IMG/VR virus record: IMGVR_UViG_3300043446_003177
Span: 108,233-172,232 of that record
Source of the DNA: a virus
DNA: 64,000 nucleotides
Strand: one strand, 5' to 3'
Shown here: one piece after another, positions 11,963 to 57,737 of the stretch
Layout of the letters: the number at the start of each line of letters is the position of its first letter
How positions within the stretch are numbered: position 1 is the first letter of the stretch
Notes under the pieces: generated by a model
The model's database searches: none
Seen by the model: only the letters and a program-made list of their open reading frames with translations
What the model was told of the DNA's origin: nothing
Translations under genes and position numbers: made by a program

Positions 11963-13698
11963 TGCCCAAGATAAAGTCCCATAAAACAGTTGAACAAATT
12001 GCAAAGAAGCATCGCCTTGATGTTTCTTTCATACAGAAGCAACTTGATATGGGAGAACCCATTGAACATGAGCATACAAAAGATCATGAATTAGCGATGG
12101 ATATTGCTCTTCAACATCTTGATGAAATTCCAGATTATTATACTCGATTAAAAAAAATGGAGGCATCCGCCAAAAAAGAACATAAAAAATTTAAAGATGT
12201 TACTGAAGAGGGTCTTCGTGATTGGTTTGGAAAATCAAAATCAAAAGATGGAAAAGCGGGTTGGGTAAACGTTGTAACTGGCGGAACATGCGCTAGTGAT
12301 GAACCTGGAGAAGGAGTTCCAAAATGTGTCTCTTCTTCAAAAAGAGCGAGTATGACTCCAGCAGAAAGACGTTCTGCATCAAGAAGAAAAAAAGCGGCAG
12401 ATTCTGGACAACAAGAAAAATCTGGTGCTGCAAAACCAACCTATGTTTCTACAGATTCACCTAAAAAGAAAATGAAAGAAGAAATGGAAGTACAAGAAGA
12501 AAAAGATAAACCAAGTAAAGGTAGTGGTAAAAAAGATGCTTGCTATCATAAGGTAAAGGCAAGATATGATGTTTGGCCTAGTGCATATGCATCTGGTGCA
12601 TTGGTCAAATGTCGCAAAAAAGGTGCTGCAAATTGGGGTACAAAATCCGAAGCGGTAGAAGAAGAAAGATTTTGTCCATTATGCGATAAAAGGGAAAAAA
12701 GATCAGAATGTTCTTATGGGGAAGAAGCTTGGGATAAAGTATCAATTAAAGATCATGAATATTCTATGGCTAGATCAGAAATAAAGAACATTATTGATGC
12801 TGCTAAAAGACTTGAAAAGAAAGTAGCAAAAGGTGAAGGATCTCTGGAAGCTTGGGTACAATCAAAAATTACTAAGGCTGCAGACTACATTGATACTGCT
12901 GCAGATTATGTTGCAAGTGGAGAAATGGAAGAAGCATGTTGGACTGGATATAAGCAAGTGGGGATGAAAAAGAAAGGAAAAAAAATTGTTCCTAATTGTG
13001 TTCCAGCATCCGAAGAAAAACTAGTAGATAAAATTGTAAACGAAATTATTTCTGAAAAGCAAAATTCAAGTACAATTGAAGATGCAAATGGAAACAGTTT
13101 TGTTGAAGTAGTTAACTTGATTGAACCGGAACCAATCAAAGGATTTAAATCACAAATTGAAGAGGCAACACGTTTGCAGTCACAAACTGGAAATATAGTT
13201 GCAGTAACTATATCTTGGAGAGGAAAATATTATGCAATGCGTATGTTTTTCCCTCAGGCAAAAGTTCCATCAAGAAAAGAAATTAATGATGAGATTAAAA
13301 AAGTATATCCAAATTCTATAGTTGTTGCTCACTCAGTTTCCGAGTTTACTCCAGGACAACCCTTAATCCAAACTGGAGTTCAGGGTGGAAGTTACGGAAA
13401 TCCAGGTCCAAGCAAAAATTATGTAAAAACAATGGGTGAAGACTGGCAGTCAGTCAATCGCAAAGATAAAACTGATGGTCTCAGTCAAAAAGCTGTAAAT
13501 GCTTATCGTCGTGAGAATCCAGGTTCAAAACTTCAAACTGCAGTAACAGAAAAGAACCCAACAGGTAAAAGAGCATCTCGTCGCAAATCATTCTGCTCAA
13601 GGATGAGTGGTATGAAAAAAAGATTAACTTCCGCAAAAACTGCAAACGATCCAGATTCCAGAATCAACAAAGCCCTTCGTCGTTGGAACTGCAACTAA
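11962..13698 (+). CDS. Modular basic, cysteine-containing virion protein
   Basis: This 578-residue protein is a chain of short modules I recognise from cyanophage structural proteins. In order they are: an N-terminal block with HEHTKDHELAMDIALQHLDE (DUF5661-like); a GGTCASDEPGEGVPKCVSSS module; ACYHKVKARYDVWPSAYASG (DUF5872-like, Cys-bearing); a CPLC...C segment with a helical region near residues 240-315; a CWTGYKQVGMKKKGKK motif near 330; a WRGKYYAMRMFF module near 405-465; and a C-terminal FCSRMSGMKKRLTSAKT motif. It is strongly basic, with many lysines between modules. Its place between the terminase genes suggests a late head-associated product. Individual module functions are unknown. 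Confidence 0.75.
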   Translation: MPKIKSHKTVEQIAKKHRLDVSFIQKQLDMGEPIEHEHTKDHELAMDIALQHLDEIPDYYTRLKKMEASAKKEHKKFKDVTEEGLRDWFGKSKSKDGKAGWVNVVTGGTCASDEPGEGVPKCVSSSKRASMTPAERRSASRRKKAADSGQQEKSGAAKPTYVSTDSPKKKMKEEMEVQEEKDKPSKGSGKKDACYHKVKARYDVWPSAYASGALVKCRKKGAANWGTKSEAVEEERFCPLCDKREKRSECSYGEEAWDKVSIKDHEYSMARSEIKNIIDAAKRLEKKVAKGEGSLEAWVQSKITKAADYIDTAADYVASGEMEEACWTGYKQVGMKKKGKKIVPNCVPASEEKLVDKIVNEIISEKQNSSTIEDANGNSFVEVVNLIEPEPIKGFKSQIEEATRLQSQTGNIVAVTISWRGKYYAMRMFFPQAKVPSRKEINDEIKKVYPNSIVVAHSVSEFTPGQPLIQTGVQGGSYGNPGPSKNYVKTMGEDWQSVNRKDKTDGLSQKAVNAYRRENPGSKLQTAVTEKNPTGKRASRRKSFCSRMSGMKKRLTSAKTANDPDSRINKALRRWNCN

Positions 13699-14015
13699 TG
13701 AAATCATTCAATCAATTTCTATCAGAAGCTGTAAACATTGCCGGAGATTTTAACGGCAATCTATACATTAATAGTTCTGAAATGCAATCAGAACAGGTTA
13801 AAGAATCTTTTTTTGCTGATGTTGTATGGGAAGGGAGACTTTATCGCCTTGAAGTTGAAGGTAGCATGATGAATAAAACAGAACTAGCTGAACAACTTCA
13901 AGATCAATATCCAGGGGTAATTGTTCACAATATTTACCCACAACAACCATCAAGTTCATTAAAAATTAAAAATACGCAAAGATACCAACCAGAAAGATTG
14001 ACTTGGAGTGACTAA
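13698..14015 (+). CDS. Small protein with capsid-targeting-like N terminus
   Basis: I start at 13698, where TAATG overlaps the previous stop; an upstream in-frame ATG at 13683 lies inside the preceding gene. The 105-residue product begins MKSFNQFLSEA, close to the capsid-targeting peptide of T4 internal proteins (MKTYQEFIAEA), with a perfect gp21 consensus (L-S-E before A). The body has a module (VVWEGRLYRLEVEG, then LAEQLQDQYPGVIVHNIYP) that parallels the W-x-G-x-Y module in the preceding gene. Packaging into the prohead with removal of the first ten residues is the predicted fate. Confidence 0.72.
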   Translation: MKSFNQFLSEAVNIAGDFNGNLYINSSEMQSEQVKESFFADVVWEGRLYRLEVEGSMMNKTELAEQLQDQYPGVIVHNIYPQQPSSSLKIKNTQRYQPERLTWSD

Positions 14016-22216: not shown

Positions 22217-22774
22217 ATGGCGCATAAACCAGTAGGTGCGGGAATTTCATTATCAACAACTGCCGTTTCAGCATTAACCACTTCATTTTCCGTTCAATCA
22301 AATGTTCTGAGAGTGACTGCAGTTAATGCTGGGGCATTTGTTGCAATTGGAACAAACCCAACCGCATCAATTACAGATTATTATATTCCTGCAGGAAAAT
22401 CAGAAACTCTTGCTTTAACAAAAGCATCACAAAGAGTTGCTGGTATAACAACCGGAACAACTACTATTATTGATTTTCCAGAAGGAACTCAAACTCCTTT
22501 TGTTGCTGGAGATTATGTTACCTTAACAGTCACTGGGCAATCTTATTACAATTTTACCCATGTTCCTGTTATTTCCGTAAATAATACTGCATCTTATGAT
22601 GGGTATTTTTCAAAGAGAATTGTCGTAGATTATAACTCAAGTGGTATTGTAACCGCATTTTCACCAACAACATCATATGCTGATTTGAGAGGATCTATCA
22701 GAGTTGCTGCTAGAACCGAAGGTGGATCTGGAACCGTTTATATTCAACAAGTACAAATTTCAGGACAAGCATAA
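22217..22774 (+). CDS. Virion structural protein between core and protease genes
   Basis: This 185-residue, beta-rich protein (VSALTTSFSVQSNVLRVTAV, IGTNPTASITDYYIPAGKSE) has no enzyme motif, signal or membrane segment. Its last base overlaps the gp21 start, so it is translated with the protease. I know similar proteins at this locus in cyanophages, where they are annotated as structural; a head decoration or capsid-associated role is plausible but not shown. The central segment with YYNFTHVPVISVNNT looks like an immunoglobulin-like or jelly-roll strand pair. Confidence 0.65.
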   Translation: MAHKPVGAGISLSTTAVSALTTSFSVQSNVLRVTAVNAGAFVAIGTNPTASITDYYIPAGKSETLALTKASQRVAGITTGTTTIIDFPEGTQTPFVAGDYVTLTVTGQSYYNFTHVPVISVNNTASYDGYFSKRIVVDYNSSGIVTAFSPTTSYADLRGSIRVAARTEGGSGTVYIQQVQISGQA

Positions 22775-23424
22775 TGAAACTTATTACCGAAGAAATCGAA
22801 TCAGTAGAAGTTCTTACCGAAACGGTCAACGGTAAGAAGACTCTTTATATCCAAGGACCTTTCCTTCAAACTGAAGTTGTAAACAGAAACGGTAGAATGT
22901 ATCGTTTACCTGTTATGGAAAGAGAGGTAAAGCGTTACACTGAACAATATGTAAATAAGGGTCGTGCTCTTGGAGAGCTTGGACACCCTGATGGTCCTAC
23001 TGTAAATCTAGATCGAGTCTCCCATAAAATTGTTTCACTTCACCGCGAAGGAAATAATTTTATTGGTAAGGCGCAAATCCTCTCAACTCCAATGGGAAAA
23101 ATTGCAGAGTCACTTTTAAAAGAAGGAGTTACTCTTGGCGTTTCCTCTCGTGGTATTGGTTCAGTCAAATCTACTCGTGAAGGTTTTACTGAAGTTGGCG
23201 AAGATTTCATGCTAGCAACTGCTGCTGATATCGTTGCCGATCCTTCTGCTCCTGACGCTTTTGTTCAGGGAATCATGGAAGGAAAGGAATGGGTTTGGGA
23301 AGGTGGAATGCTCAGAGAAAGAGCAGCACAAAAAACTTATAAGAGAATTAATACTCTTGTAGACCAAAAACGTCTGGAAGAGCATAAATTGAATCTATTC
23401 AATGAGTTTTTAAACTCATTGTAA
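22774..23424 (+). CDS. gp21: Prohead core protease gp21
   Basis: This 216-residue protein has the serine protease pattern of T4 gp21: NRNGRMYRLPVMEREVKRY, a catalytic histidine in GELGHPDGP near residue 72, and the nucleophile serine in GVSSRGIG near residue 122. It cleaves scaffold and capsid proteins after L/I-x-E during head maturation. Substrates in this window would include gp22, gp23 (LTE at residues 56-58) and the MKSF-tagged proteins. The C terminus (EGKEWVWEGGMLRER) is typical. An inverted repeat of 9-bp arms covers the last codons. Confidence 0.95.
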   Translation: MKLITEEIESVEVLTETVNGKKTLYIQGPFLQTEVVNRNGRMYRLPVMEREVKRYTEQYVNKGRALGELGHPDGPTVNLDRVSHKIVSLHREGNNFIGKAQILSTPMGKIAESLLKEGVTLGVSSRGIGSVKSTREGFTEVGEDFMLATAADIVADPSAPDAFVQGIMEGKEWVWEGGMLRERAAQKTYKRINTLVDQKRLEEHKLNLFNEFLNSL

Positions 23425-23483: not shown

Positions 23484-24674
23484 ATGTCTCGTGGAGATTT
23501 ACAAGAAATGGAAGTAGGCACTAAGCAATCCAAAACCGCTGTCAATGCAAATGCAAAAGCGGGAGATCCAATGCCTAAACTAGCAGCAGGTGCCGTTGCT
23601 GGGCAAACAGGTGGTTGGGAAGATCTGGGTGGTCCAGATCCAACAAACTATCGTCCAGATGATGACTCGGCTAAATTAAAAACACCTGGAGCAACTCTTA
23701 AGCAAGTTAGAGATGTTGTTAATAAGGGTGCTAAAGCTGCAGATCCAACTCCTCATATGAAAGGTGCTGTTAAAGAAGAAACCGAAGAAGATGAGGAAGA
23801 TCTAATTGTAGACGAAGAGGATCTTGAAATCTCTGATGACGAAGAAGTAGTAGAAGAAGAAGCTTCTGAAAAAGAAGAAAAGGGTGAGAAGGAAGAGAAG
23901 GGTAAGAAGGATAAGGAAGAAGAAGAGGAAGAGGAAGAGATGGAAGAAGAGTTTAACATCGATGAAGATGTTAATGCTCTCTTAGATGGCGAAGAGCTCT
24001 CTGAGGAATTCCAAGAGAAAGCACGTATCATTTTTGAAGCTGCTCTTCGTTCAAAAGTTTCTGATATTAAAGAAACTCTTGAAGAGCAGTATGAGCAAAG
24101 ACTTTCTGAAGAAATTTCAGAAATCAAATCAGTTCTTCAAGAAAGAATTGATTCATACTTAGAGTATGTTGCTGACGAATGGTTTGAGGAAAATGCTCTA
24201 GCAATTGAGCATGGAATCAAAACCGAGATTACCGAGTCATTCCTCCAAGGAATGAAGGGTCTTTTTGAAGAGCATTATGTAACAATCCCTGAAGATAGAT
24301 ATGATGTTTTAGAGAGCATGGTAGACAAACTTGATGAAATGGAGACAAAACTCAACGAGCAGATTGAGAGAAATATTTCCCTAAACAAGCGCCTCGCAGA
24401 GTCGGTTGCTGACGGAATCTTAGATCAAGTCTCTGAGGGCCTTGCTGCTACTCAGAAAGAAAAGCTCGCTTCACTTGCCGAAAGTGTTGAGTTTGAAAGT
24501 GAAGAGGAATATCGTGAAAAACTGGAGACTTTAAAGGAATCATATTTTCCTTCCAGAACAGTATCTCCATCAGCTAAAACAGAAACCCTCTCAGAGGGTT
24601 TAGACAGAGCACCTGAAAATGTAACAGGTTCGATGGCGGCTTATCTGAGAACGCTTTCATCTTTTAGCAAATAA
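23484..24674 (+). CDS. gp22: Prohead core scaffold gp22
   Basis: This 396-residue scaffold forms the prohead core around which gp23 assembles and is then cut up by gp21. It has a poorly structured N-terminal third, a very acidic low-complexity tract around residues 90-155 (long runs of E), and a C-terminal half that is almost entirely helical (VADEWFEENALAIEHGIKTE, YDVLESMVDKLDEMETKL). T4 gp22 is about 270 residues; cyanophage versions are longer through the acidic region. Position between gp21 and gp23 confirms the call. Several L/I-x-E sites are present. Confidence 0.9.
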   Translation: MSRGDLQEMEVGTKQSKTAVNANAKAGDPMPKLAAGAVAGQTGGWEDLGGPDPTNYRPDDDSAKLKTPGATLKQVRDVVNKGAKAADPTPHMKGAVKEETEEDEEDLIVDEEDLEISDDEEVVEEEASEKEEKGEKEEKGKKDKEEEEEEEEMEEEFNIDEDVNALLDGEELSEEFQEKARIIFEAALRSKVSDIKETLEEQYEQRLSEEISEIKSVLQERIDSYLEYVADEWFEENALAIEHGIKTEITESFLQGMKGLFEEHYVTIPEDRYDVLESMVDKLDEMETKLNEQIERNISLNKRLAESVADGILDQVSEGLAATQKEKLASLAESVEFESEEEYREKLETLKESYFPSRTVSPSAKTETLSEGLDRAPENVTGSMAAYLRTLSSFSK

Positions 24675-24724: not shown

Positions 24725-26155
24725 ATGTTCCATTCCGAGCATCTGCAGGAAAAGTGGGCACCACTCCTCAACTATGAGGGTCTTGATCAAATCAAAGATT
24801 CGCATCGTAGAGCGGTAACCGCAGTCCTGCTAGAAAACCAAGAAAGATTTTTAAGAGAGCAATCTGCATTTGAAAGTGCAGGTTCATTCCTAACCGAAAC
24901 TCCAGTAAACAGCACTGCTTCAAGTTCAACTGCAGGTTTCGGTGGTAGCGCACAAGGATTTAGCGCAGGTCCTACCGCAGGTTTCGACCCTGTTCTGATC
25001 TCTCTGATCAGACGCTCAATGCCTAACCTTGTTGCTTATGATCTCGCTGGCGTTCAACCAATGAACGGTCCAACCGGCCTGATCTTTGCAATGCGTTCAC
25101 GCTACAACAACCAGAGCGGTACAGAAGCATTCTATAACGAAGTTGATACCGCATGGTCTGGTCAGCCATTTGGCCGCGATAACGAAGATGGATTTACCAA
25201 CGGTGCCGTTGGTATGGGTACTACTGCACAAAATGGTACAAACCCATCCGTTCTGAACGCAGCTGGTGCAGCTGGTGGCGACTACAATGTTGGTCAGGGT
25301 ATGCGTACTGACCAGGCTGAAGCACTTGATAGTGGTGCGGACGCTTTCAACCAGATGGCGTTCTCAATCGAGAAGGTTACCGTTACTGCAAAGTCACGCG
25401 CCCTCAAGGCTGAGTACACCTTAGAACTCGCACAAGACCTCAAGGCAATCCACGGTCTGAATGCTGAAGCGGAACTCGCAAATATTCTCTCAACTGAGAT
25501 TCTTGCTGAGATCAACCGCGAAGTCATCAGAACCATCTACAAGGTTGCTGAACAGGGTGCTGCTCAAAACACCGCTACTGCTGGTGTATTTGACCTCGAC
25601 GTTGATTCAAACGGTCGTTGGTCGGTTGAGAAGTTCAAGGGTCTACTCTTCCAGATCGAGAGAGATGCAAACGCAATCGCTCAAAGAACTCGTAGAGGAA
25701 AGGGCAACATCATCATGTGCTCTGCTGACGTTGCTTCAGCACTGACCATGGCTGGTGTTCTCGATTACACCCCTGCGCTCAATGCTAATCTGTCTGTTGA
25801 TGATACCGGTAATACTTTTGCTGGTACTCTGATGGGCAAATTCCGCGTCTACATTGACCCATATGCTGCTAACCTGACTTCAGGTAACGCTGCTCCAACA
25901 GGTGGTAACCAGTACTACGTTGTTGGTTATAAGGGTTCTTCACCTTATGACGCAGGTCTCTTCTATTGCCCATATGTTCCTCTCCAAATGGTACGTGCCG
26001 TTGGTGAGAACAGCTTCCAGCCTAAGATCGGCTTTAAGACCCGTTATGGAATGGTTGCAAACCCATTCGCTGAGGGTACTACCCAGGGTCAAGGCAATCT
26101 CACTGTTAACGCAAACCGTTACTACAGAAGAGTTGCTGTGAAAAATTTAATGTGA
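24725..26155 (+). CDS. gp23: Major capsid protein gp23
   Basis: This 476-residue protein matches T4 gp23 (521): LLNYEGLDQIKDSHRRAVTA near the start, SLIRRSMPNLVAYDLAGVQP, MNGPTGLIFAMRSRY, and the C-terminal RVYIDPYAAN with VGYKGSSPYDAG. The propeptide ends at the predicted gp21 site SFLTE after residue 58, as in T4 (after residue 65). The mature N-arm then carries a glycine-rich stretch (residues 69-89) that recurs in the small gene at 57138. The gene is visibly more GC-rich in third positions than its neighbours, consistent with very high expression. A ribosome site AGAGGT lies near 24712. Confidence 0.98.
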   Translation: MFHSEHLQEKWAPLLNYEGLDQIKDSHRRAVTAVLLENQERFLREQSAFESAGSFLTETPVNSTASSSTAGFGGSAQGFSAGPTAGFDPVLISLIRRSMPNLVAYDLAGVQPMNGPTGLIFAMRSRYNNQSGTEAFYNEVDTAWSGQPFGRDNEDGFTNGAVGMGTTAQNGTNPSVLNAAGAAGGDYNVGQGMRTDQAEALDSGADAFNQMAFSIEKVTVTAKSRALKAEYTLELAQDLKAIHGLNAEAELANILSTEILAEINREVIRTIYKVAEQGAAQNTATAGVFDLDVDSNGRWSVEKFKGLLFQIERDANAIAQRTRRGKGNIIMCSADVASALTMAGVLDYTPALNANLSVDDTGNTFAGTLMGKFRVYIDPYAANLTSGNAAPTGGNQYYVVGYKGSSPYDAGLFYCPYVPLQMVRAVGENSFQPKIGFKTRYGMVANPFAEGTTQGQGNLTVNANRYYRRVAVKNLM

Positions 26156-52701: not shown

Positions 52702-53946
52702 ATGAAAAGTTTTTCACGATTTTTATCTGAGGCGCAGTCTTCTCAAGCCGTAATGCAAGCAAAAAGGCTTGGTTTGGTTGGTGATGGTCATGGTGGGTGG
52801 TACGATAAAAATGGTGAATTTGTTGCAAAAACTGAAGGTAGTAAATTAAAGTTTTATAATAAGAATCAAGTTCCTGGGCAGCAAGATCCTCCTCAAGATA
52901 GAACTGCTGCTAATCAACAACCAGTTGCAACTCAGGTTCAAGCACCACAGCAAGAACAACCACCTGCAGAAGAACCAAAGAAAGATAAAGGAATTCTAAC
53001 CGTTGCTTTTGGGCGTTTTAATCCTCCAACAACAGGGCATGAGAAACTTCTAGATAAAGTTGCTAATGTTGCTGGAAAGGGTGAATACAAAATTTATCCA
53101 TCAAGATCTAACGATAAGAAAAAGAATCCACTAGATCCTGATACTAAAATTTCAATCATGCGTCAGATGTATCCGAAGCATGGTGAAAGAATTGTGAATG
53201 ATGCAAACTCAAAGACAATCTTTGATGTATTGAAGCAAGCACATGCAGATGGATATTCTGGAGTTAATATTGTAGTTGGTTCTGATCGTCAAGCAGAATT
53301 TGAAAAACTTGCAACTCAGTATAACGGCGAACTCTATGATTTTAAGGATTTGAATGTAGTTTCTGCTGGAGAAAGAGATCCTGATGCTGAGGGTGTGGAA
53401 GGAATGTCTGCATCCAAACTCCGCAAGGCAGCAGCAGAAGGAGACTTTAAAACATTTAGGTCAGGAGTTCCTTCCACACTTGATGATGAATCTGCAAAGA
53501 AAATATACAATACCATCCGCAAATCTATGGGTGTTAAAGAAGGATGGGACTTGTGGGAAATTGCCCCTAAATTTGATTGGAAGAATTTGAGAGAGAATTA
53601 TATCTCTCAGAATATATTTAAGATGGGGCAACTAGTTGAAAATTTAAATACGGGTCTTATTGGGAAGATAATTCGTAGAGGAACAAATTATTTAATTTGT
53701 GTAACTGAAGATAATATAATGTTTAAATCTTGGATTAAAGATGTAATGGAATATACTGAAGTTAAAATGGATACTCCAATGAGAGATAAAAAACATCCAA
53801 ATACGTTGGTTGGTACTCTAGGTGCATTTAAGCATTATGCAAAAATGACTACTGGTGCAATAGGAACTGGAAAAGAAAATCTGACTTCAAGTTCAAAGGC
53901 GTATGGTATTAATTTCATAAATAAGTATAAGGCAAATAAGAAGTAA
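52702..53946 (+). CDS. Nucleotidyltransferase with capsid-targeting-like N terminus
   Basis: This 414-residue protein begins MKSFSRFLSEAQ, matching the T4 internal-protein targeting peptide MKTYQEFIAEA with a gp21 site (L-S-E before A). A Gln/Pro-rich linker (residues about 55-90) leads to a cytidylyltransferase-like domain: AFGRFNPPTTGHEKLLDKV near 100 contains the P-x-x-x-GH motif (T-x-GH) and MSASKLRKAAAEGD near 235 is the ISxTxxR-type loop. The C-terminal module (GKIIRRGTNYLICVTEDN, SWIKDVMEY) occurs in other virion-type proteins. It has its own late box. Packaging and ejection with the DNA is predicted; the substrate (NMN, CTP or other) is unknown. Confidence 0.78.
   Translation: MKSFSRFLSEAQSSQAVMQAKRLGLVGDGHGGWYDKNGEFVAKTEGSKLKFYNKNQVPGQQDPPQDRTAANQQPVATQVQAPQQEQPPAEEPKKDKGILTVAFGRFNPPTTGHEKLLDKVANVAGKGEYKIYPSRSNDKKKNPLDPDTKISIMRQMYPKHGERIVNDANSKTIFDVLKQAHADGYSGVNIVVGSDRQAEFEKLATQYNGELYDFKDLNVVSAGERDPDAEGVEGMSASKLRKAAAEGDFKTFRSGVPSTLDDESAKKIYNTIRKSMGVKEGWDLWEIAPKFDWKNLRENYISQNIFKMGQLVENLNTGLIGKIIRRGTNYLICVTEDNIMFKSWIKDVMEYTEVKMDTPMRDKKHPNTLVGTLGAFKHYAKMTTGAIGTGKENLTSSSKAYGINFINKYKANKK
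53916..53923 (+). promoter_or_regulatory. Late promoter box CATAAATA
   Basis: CATAAATA lies within the last codons of the preceding gene and ends 32 bases before the ATG at 53956. Confidence 0.55.
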
Positions 53947-56007: not shown

Positions 56008-56763
56008 ATGGCACTCTGGGGAATTTCCACAACTACTGAAACTGCTGCTAATAATTACGCTATTCCAAAGTATCAACAAAATACGGATAGAAATAGAAGC
56101 CCTTGGAATACTTTTGCAGATGTTCGTGGTTGGATTCAAAGACATTATGGAACTGCTGAGCATTCTGGTCTTTCTAGTACATACTATGATGAAGTTTTAG
56201 TTGTTGTTGCTGGATTAAATACAGGAACAGATGCTGTAGGAAATCCTGGATTAAACAATACTGGTATTGGAAGTGCTACCCCAGTTGCTATTTTCTTTGA
56301 AGATCCTAATCAAGCATCTCCTATTTCTATTGGTGCTGGTGGTACGACAGGTATTGGAACTGGTAGAACTGGATATGTTCATGTTGTATGGAATGAAAAT
56401 GTTTACTGCTCCGCTGGTGCAACAGTAAGAATTCTACGTTCAACTGGTGCAGCTCTTATTGGTACAGCAGCATCAACGGGTACAGCAGTTGTTAATTATA
56501 CAAATGCTGACGGTGCGGTATCGCAGACATTTAACGGTCAAATTTCTAATAGGATTTCCTTCGCGTTCACTGTACCAAACACTGGTATTGGAACTGTACT
56601 TTCTATTGATTTGGCTGCAGGGGTTGTTGGAACAATCACTGATTTCTCGGGTGGTGGTGCTGTAAACAAGTCACTTTCTGGTTTAATTAAGAATGTTGGC
56701 GGTGCTGGTGATTATCTGTCTGGTGTTGGTATTGGAACAACCACTTTAACAATTAAGGCATGA
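56008..56763 (+). CDS. Virion structural protein, beta-rich
   Basis: This 251-residue protein (MALWGISTTTETAANNYAIP, NTFADVRGWIQRHYGTAEHS) is rich in G, T, A and V with many short strands, like phage fibre or decoration proteins. The MALWG start is common in cyanophage virion proteins. No enzyme motif is visible. A late box and an AAAGG ribosome site precede it. It leads a late unit that also contains the gp23-arm-like gene at 57138. Confidence 0.68.
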   Translation: MALWGISTTTETAANNYAIPKYQQNTDRNRSPWNTFADVRGWIQRHYGTAEHSGLSSTYYDEVLVVVAGLNTGTDAVGNPGLNNTGIGSATPVAIFFEDPNQASPISIGAGGTTGIGTGRTGYVHVVWNENVYCSAGATVRILRSTGAALIGTAASTGTAVVNYTNADGAVSQTFNGQISNRISFAFTVPNTGIGTVLSIDLAAGVVGTITDFSGGGAVNKSLSGLIKNVGGAGDYLSGVGIGTTTLTIKA

Positions 56764-56764
56764 T

Positions 56765-57157
56765 ATGATCTTCAATGAATTGAATGAGGATAATTTCCTC
56801 TTGTTTGCAATTAAACACTATGAAAATCCTCAAGCAGTTACGAAAGAAGACTTTGAGAAGGATTTGAATCATTTTAAGTATATTAAAAGATTGCTAAAAA
56901 GGTATAAAAATACCGGTAATTTAAAAACTCATCTCCTTCTCAATCATTTTATTATTCTTTATAATATATTTGGTGATGCTACCACTCCAATGCTTTTCTA
57001 TAAAATAGAGAAAGAACTTTGGGATAGTATGAAAACTTTTGTTATGTTTTTGGGTAAACTGCCTGAGTATCCAAAATGTTATATCCATGATGTTAAAGTT
57101 GATTTAGAATGTTTAAAAGAATTGCAAAAAATCTTCCATGGACAAAACGAAACTTGA
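56765..57157 (+). CDS. Conserved hypothetical helical protein
   Basis: This 130-residue protein (IFNELNEDNFLLFAIKHYEN, then LLKRYKNTGNLKTHLLLNHF, IILYNIFGDATTPML) is almost wholly helical with hydrophobic stretches that look buried, not transmembrane. I know similar uncharacterised proteins in T4-like cyanophages and pelagiphages. It starts one base after the structural gene and overlaps the next start by 20 bases, so the three are co-translated. No function can be assigned. Confidence 0.68.
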   Translation: MIFNELNEDNFLLFAIKHYENPQAVTKEDFEKDLNHFKYIKRLLKRYKNTGNLKTHLLLNHFIILYNIFGDATTPMLFYKIEKELWDSMKTFVMFLGKLPEYPKCYIHDVKVDLECLKELQKIFHGQNET

Positions 57158-57374
57158 TAAAGTAATTGAAGCTTTTAGGCATCTTAAAGAAGATGGCGTT
57201 CCAACAATGAATACTGCTAGTACTGCAGGTAAAGCGGGATTCGGTGGAAGTGCTCAAGGATTTGACCCTGGACCAACTGCTGGTTTTGATCCAAAGATGG
57301 GTGGTGTAAGAAAAAGATATGCTAAAGGTGGAAGAGACTCCAGAAAAAAATGGTTGGACTACTTAAAGAAGTAG
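57138..57374 (+). CDS. Small protein carrying a copy of the gp23 N-arm motif
   Basis: This 78-residue protein has an N-terminal helix (KLDKVIEAFRHLKEDG), then residues 33-52 AGFGGSAQGFDPGPTAGFDP. Residues 70-89 of the major capsid protein read AGFGGSAQGFSAGPTAGFDP, identical at 18 of 20 positions although many codons differ. The C terminus is basic and aromatic (KRYAKGGRDSRKKWLDYLKK). It overlaps the previous gene by 20 bases and belongs to a late unit. It may bind whatever contacts the capsid N-arm, or act as a small capsid or core component; this is inference. Confidence 0.75.
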   Translation: MDKTKLDKVIEAFRHLKEDGVPTMNTASTAGKAGFGGSAQGFDPGPTAGFDPKMGGVRKRYAKGGRDSRKKWLDYLKK

Positions 57375-57386
57375 CAGGTAAGAAAA

Positions 57387-57737
57387 ATGTTCAGCAACGA
57401 CTCAAAAATTCAATTAGCAGTGCTTCAGGAAAGATTTAAGGCACACGAACAGATTATTGAGAAAGTTGATACTGCTATTCAAACCTTAAGTGAAACGAAT
57501 CAAAATATTTGCAAGATGTTAACAGTTCATGATGAGCGTTTAGCACAATGTACTAAAGATGATGGAGAACTTTGTAAAAAAGTCGAAGATATTGAAAGTA
57601 GAATAGATAGTCTTTATAAGTTTAGATGGCAGATTGGCGGAGTCATTGCTGTTGCTGCTGTAGTTATTGGATTACTCCCATCAATTTCAACTATCTTTAA
57701 TCCTCCTTCTGCTGCTACAATAGAAAGAACAAAATAA
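57387..57737 (+). CDS. Coiled-coil protein with C-terminal membrane helix
   Basis: This 116-residue protein has a long heptad-rich helix (QLAVLQERFKAHEQIIEKVD to ESRIDSLYKFRW) and one transmembrane segment near residues 82-103 (IGGVIAVAAVVIGLLPSIS), ending in a short polar tail. The architecture is that of XhlA-like accessory holins or other phage inner-membrane proteins. It closes the late unit that starts at 55968. A lysis role is plausible, given the small membrane protein at 55741 and the lysozyme-domain protein at 63439, but is not shown. Confidence 0.68.
   Translation: MFSNDSKIQLAVLQERFKAHEQIIEKVDTAIQTLSETNQNICKMLTVHDERLAQCTKDDGELCKKVEDIESRIDSLYKFRWQIGGVIAVAAVVIGLLPSISTIFNPPSAATIERTK

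Follow-up and report, generated by a model that had tools for sequence, protein, structure and literature searches.

The T4 vertex protein gp24 has a gp21-trimmed N-terminus and is a full HK97-fold paralogue of the major capsid protein gp23. The cyanophage protein described here, 78 residues long, would likewise be a head protein with a gp21-trimmed N-terminus (its cleavage is predicted), but it is far too short for an HK97-fold paralogue of gp23. T4 gp21 cuts after L/I-X-E, a three-residue motif (PMC9026906). This protease takes 65 residues off T4 gp23 (PMC7136217), and the first 25 residues left after the cut, residues 66-91 of gp23*, form the N-fist, which contacts four subunits, two in its own capsomer and two in the next (PMC9958956). 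The N-terminal regions of gp23* are disordered inside the prohead before expansion. The N-fist orders on head expansion and contributes to the Soc site (PMC9958956, PMC7136217); only the five subunits whose N-fist faces the portal keep it disordered (PMC7136217). These passages on the N-fist describe no separate T4 protein with a copy of it (PMC9958956, PMC7136217). The T4 internal proteins IPI, IPII and IPIII are small and basic, with leaders of 10-19 residues that follow the same L/I-x-E rule (PMC9026906).

Like the internal proteins, the 78-aa protein has a predicted leader, of 18 residues, an L/I-x-E motif and a small, basic mature part; the differences are that this mature part begins like gp23 and that short orthologues have no leader. 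With the N-fist, the copied segment shares its position, immediately past the gp21 cut and ahead of the N-arm; in the window genome, its sequence nearly repeats that of the gp23 stretch. The T4 segment, in contrast, belongs to gp23 itself, and its equivalence to the cyanophage gp23 segment is drawn from the cut site and an alignment.

The N-fist equivalent of the cyanophage gp23

The window, a 64,000-nt stretch of a 172-kb IMG/VR record (IMGVR_UViG_3300043446_003177), encodes gp21, gp22 and gp23 homologues as well as the small gene (Table 1). A maturation site after residue 58 of gp23 had been predicted in the preliminary description, and the sequence there does obey the published gp21 rule. 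Residues 59-89 lie almost wholly ahead of the Pfam Gp23 domain. The alignment was made with T4 gp23. Because the copied stretch follows the cut, the T4 N-fist occupies residues 66-91 and the Gp23 domain begins at residue 85, the stretch is, as judged by cut site and alignment, the equivalent of the N-fist. It had earlier been labelled N-arm; it does follow the cut, but what the two proteins share matches the T4 N-fist and stops where the N-arm starts. A literature search found no cyanomyovirus head structure.

Table 1. Positions of the small gene, its neighbours and the head genes within the window
Feature	Position	Strand	Details
gp21 prohead protease homologue	22774-23424	+	phrog_207, 7.6e-82
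gp22 scaffold homologue	23484-24674	+	phrog_237, 1.9e-110
gp23, major capsid protein	24725-26155	+	Pfam PF07068 1.8e-150, residues 85-472; phrog_138
gp23 propeptide, residues 1-58	24725-24898	+	predicted cut FLTE/TPVN (slash, cut); fits gp21 rule
gp23 residues 59-89, N-fist equivalent by cut site and alignment	24899-24991	+	core match 70-89 at 24932-24991
phrog_11617 protein, neighbour	56008-56763	+	in other cyanophages, the gene at this place is annotated as head, structural or S-layer protein
phrog_407 / T4-GC198 gene	56765-57157	+	20-nt overlap with start of small gene; marks syntenic place
Gene of 78-aa protein	57138-57374	+	78-aa ORF; phrog_3286 E=4e-7, residues 1-74
Predicted propeptide, residues 1-18, MDKTKLDKVIEAFRHLKE	57138-57191	+	helix 5-18 ending L-K-E (L16-K17-E18)
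N-fist-like tag, residues 19-52	57192-57293	+	core 33-52 at 57234-57293
Basic tail, residues 53-78	57294-57371	+	11 K/R, 2 D/E; C-terminal YAKGGxxSRKKWLDYLK; conserved
Gene in T4-GC201 position	57387-57737	+	DUF7201 coiled coil

Two other window proteins resemble the T4 capsid-targeting leader at their N-termini: the one encoded at 52702-53946 starts MKSFSRFLSEA, and the one at 13683-14015 has MKSFNQFLSEA after its first five residues. The former is apparently the gene in the cytidylyltransferase place, and its relatives are listed in cyanophage virions. In S-SZBM1, a 199-aa virion structural protein is listed a few genes from the cytidylyltransferase (compare the phrog_11617 gene of the window).

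The small protein, its tag and its relatives

Residues 33-52 of the small protein (AGFGGSAQGFDPGPTAGFDP) are identical to residues 70-89 of gp23 (AGFGGSAQGFSAGPTAGFDP) at 18 of 20 positions. The match, already noted from the sequence, is real: the two proteins gave a local score of 110, compared with a mean of 30.3 (s.d. 4.6) and a maximum of 57 in 2,000 shuffles. The likeness had been put at 20 residues, which describes the core, but the similarity is longer, covering residues 24-60 of the small protein and 61-97 of gp23. Searched against the whole 172-kb record, the small protein retrieved only itself (2.8e-51) and gp23 (4.2e-10), and a six-frame pattern scan of the record disclosed no third copy of the motif, which rules out any further copy in this genome. 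Pattern scans also found the motif absent from gp21 and gp22 of the same genome.

A Pfam search with the 78-aa protein returned nothing significant and no Gp23 (PF07068) match, and comparison with the sequences of solved structures gave chance matches only, mostly to helical repeat proteins. AF2 models of the 78-aa family were of low confidence, with helices at 5-18 and 66-77 and the tag disordered, without a fold. Beyond residue 18 the protein has 12 K/R versus 5 D/E. Its second PHROG profile match is to phrog_696, named 'major head protein' (E=0.001, residues 26-63).

We found 49 relatives of the small protein in IMG/VR. The gene is syntenic in cyanomyoviruses: in these relatives and in the positional orthologues of cultured cyanomyoviruses, it lies between the phrog_407 (T4-GC198) and GC201/gp61 genes. 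Relatives of phrog_407 itself occur in 511 phage records. The parts behind the tag vary among four PHROG types: phrog_3286 (short), phrog_696, phrog_4187 and phrog_727 (S-CREM2). Proteins of phrog_696, T4-GC 426 and T4-GC 657 (122-286 aa) occupy the same gene place with the same kind of tag, and those tested (S-SSM5) showed no Pfam Gp23 match. For the phrog_696 type, AF2 modelled a disordered tag, a folded middle and a long helix, and the model had no significant fold match. These proteins share place and tag with the 78-aa protein and are not major capsid proteins; the name 'major head protein' is probably misleading and has probably spread from the gp23-like tag. As to the neighbourhood, the usual T4-GC201 place is taken in S-CREM2 by a gene that bears a UvrC annotation and resembles homing endonucleases by PHROG (L331:13355-13789). 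In P-HM2 and MED4-213, an extra gene lies between the tagged gene and the GC201 place (L326:2202-2975; L088:2651-3343); that of P-HM2 is T4-GC 539.

The 78-aa protein presents the gp21-substrate motif, L16-K17-E18, upstream of its mature part. Residue E18 is invariant in 16 relatives, and L/I-x-E precedes the tag in 35 of 37 relatives, which are not independent, versus 13% of shuffled N-termini. After this motif, long forms continue as, for example, MMAVGTSGF (L033), and the Sf-FS3 long form reads MMSAGTGGF after V-x-E. In short forms the propeptide is missing or nearly so, and the protein begins at the tag, with MMTAGTGGF in S-SSM5 and MNEEMMTAGTGGF in G016. Cutting of the long form and translation start of the short form would both give the same mature start. 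As read from these sequences, three features go beyond the preliminary description: the small protein has its own gp21-type site, which would expose the tag; short orthologues have the tag as their very start; and four different C-terminal modules are headed by the same tag.

About a quarter of the lineages are without the tag: Bellamy, S-SM2, ACG-2014f, S-SRM01, G033 and the S-PM2/S-CAM1/S-RSM4/S-WAM2 group either lack it or have another sequence in its stead. Melnitz-3 and S-BM3 retain only short resemblances to their own gp23; the non-cyanophage T4 relatives checked for such a protein were Melnitz-3 and one Rhizobium phage. Nine orthologues without the gp23-like tag have other tags after the site: the types APTN..G..IAG...DDPPV or LPP...PP and, in the S-PM2 group, LNE/MMAGDG..LPPAFVFVNP. 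No second copies of the Bellamy-type tag were found in four records.

The positional orthologue in S-CREM2 is gp160, encoded directly after phrog_407, and it reads IKE/EMMAAGATGFTGAAAPEGPVAGYDP compared with LLTE/APTQAVGADGFTGAAAPGGPNAGFDP in the gp23 of that phage; the gp23 variant GFTGAAAP occurs in its tag. In the published S-CREM2 virion proteome, gp160 is represented by 7 unique peptides that cover 13.1% of it (PMC10665884). For S-SZBM1, we could recognise no orthologue among the proteins of the main-text proteome table. For S-SM1, Sullivan et al. report 41 proteins found in virions (PMC3037559).

Co-variation of the tag with gp23

Co-variation within each genome had been proposed as the check on the motif. 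We scored each small protein against the gp23 segment of each genome and compared own pairs with others. Own pairs averaged 71.2 and others 52.2 (38 genomes, p=5e-5); with three more genomes (N=41) the values were 71.5 and 50.2 (z=10.9), and z was 6.7 for a thinned set of 14 genomes whose gp23 bodies are less than 82% identical. A partial Mantel test controlled for gp23-body and phrog_407 distance, which treats phylogeny only roughly, gave r=0.554 for tag versus gp23 segment (p=0.0003, 36 genomes). Leaving out any single clade kept r at 0.43-0.61, and among tag bearers without the two strongest clades it was 0.23 (p=0.013). As controls, gp23 segment versus phrog_407 gave r=0.13 and tag versus gp23 propeptide r=-0.08. 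The expected co-variation is thus present.

The clearest case is that of P-HM2 and MED4-213, whose gp23 bodies are 95% identical. MED4-213 has TNVGPINTPTT in both proteins and P-HM2 has TNVGPINTQTT in both, a parallel change of P versus Q; in addition, GAVDG/GAIMG in P-HM2 correspond to GAVAG/GAIAG in MED4-213. Other clear pairs of tag and gp23 are QTTGYT in P-RSM3, GAQGGFGG in P-TIM68, the S-CREM2 variant given above and an AQGF insertion in the window clade. Co-variation holds across the sample, but it is not universal: several lineages do without the tag, and in five genomes (S-P4, S-SM1, S-RIM2, ACG-2014b and G016) it does not follow gp23, which has TTGYTG where the tag has AGTGGFS.

Proposed docking of the tag at the head

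We consider it somewhat likelier than an even chance that the small protein is a minor head protein, matured by gp21, and docks on the gp23 shell via its own N-fist copy. Since the tag and gp23 copies change in step between viruses, the tag probably plugs into the same head sockets as the gp23 N-fist; cutting, docking and location are what we infer. The N-terminal propeptide, of 18 residues in the window protein, could bring the protein into the prohead in the manner of the T4 internal-protein leaders, and a gp21 cut after L-K-E18 would leave it with an N-terminus resembling the one on matured gp23*. Once exposed, this N-terminus may take the kind of site used by the gp23 N-fist, between neighbouring subunits, and so would hold the attached tail at the head, a tail that is short and basic in the window and a larger domain in other phages. 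Short orthologues would reach the same N-terminus by starting translation at the tag. Because these have no or almost no propeptide, the route through the inside of the prohead is not general. Of the two ideas raised earlier, a shared capsid-binding tag fares better, with an orthologue in virions and an inter-capsomer contact as the T4 counterpart, whereas competition for a scaffold or protease contact has no specific support.

The rival of most weight, which we nevertheless regard as unlikely, is that the tag and the N-terminal part of gp23 are bound by one and the same prohead partner (gp22, gp21 or some other protein of the core), so that the small protein would act in assembly or timing and not in the mature shell. 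The disordered gp23* N-termini inside the T4 prohead can meet core proteins, and the 18-residue leader resembles the T4 capsid-targeting leaders of 10-19 residues (PMC9026906). However, an orthologue stays in purified virions, short forms do without a leader, and the removed part of gp23 does not co-vary with the tag.

A role mainly as cargo, in which an internal protein is injected into the host and the tag serves packaging only, would suit a small, basic protein with a leader, L-x-E and varied C-terminal modules, as in IPI-III. The T4 internal proteins, though, are packaged by the leader alone (PMC9026906), which would make a retained capsid-like segment unnecessary, and we hold this account to be improbable. 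Quite improbable, too, is that the shared sequence represents only what lies downstream of a gp21 cleavage site, the likeness being due to recognition of both by a single protease. Both tags do lie just past an L/I-x-E site, and in each the cut is often followed by PTN or PTM, but the match extends over ~25 residues and reaches its greatest strength 12-31 residues past the gp23 cut, while the T4 rule comprises three residues (PMC9026906). Moreover, in several orthologues with the tag, the protein starts there without a site, and the motif is lacking in gp21 and gp22 of the window genome.

The codons of tag and gp23 had been described as widely different, and indeed the codon is shared at no more than 6 of the 18 identical residues (44 of 60 nt identical). 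Pooled over genomes, codons agree at 217 of 487 identical residues of own pairs, where codon usage predicts 224.9; synonymous sites are saturated. Codon agreement is at chance, therefore the peptide is kept by selection and not by recent copying, and the earlier proposal of selection on the peptide is supported by these counts together with the co-variation. Recent gene conversion from gp23 is rejected by the same counts, so that recent duplication or conversion without common function is a very improbable source of the likeness, despite the sequence similarity, the near-perfect short stretches and tags that are possibly homologous via ancient duplication.

Returning to docking on the shell, N-fist sites that have no donor, for example around the portal, would be a natural guess for the place. 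Among 22 reference records, we found no second gp23-like protein (gp24) at E<=0.001, and for this reason the donor-less sites may lie mainly at the portal. On a broader and tentative reading, which we put forward with low confidence, the exchangeable N-fist copy could be a general docking plug of T4-like cyanophages: different head proteins at one genome place would wear the tag and fill donor-less N-fist sites, chiefly those at the portal vertex, and the plug would then have to evolve in step with the shell.

These results offer a testable function for a gene place common to many T4-like cyanophages, which are abundant ocean viruses, where products are now named 'hypothetical' or, misleadingly, 'major head protein'. 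The natural pairs in P-HM2, MED4-213 and S-CREM2 make the idea directly testable. If it is true, attachment to the capsid would be achieved by mimicking the shell's own glue, with a segment copied and then kept in step by selection.
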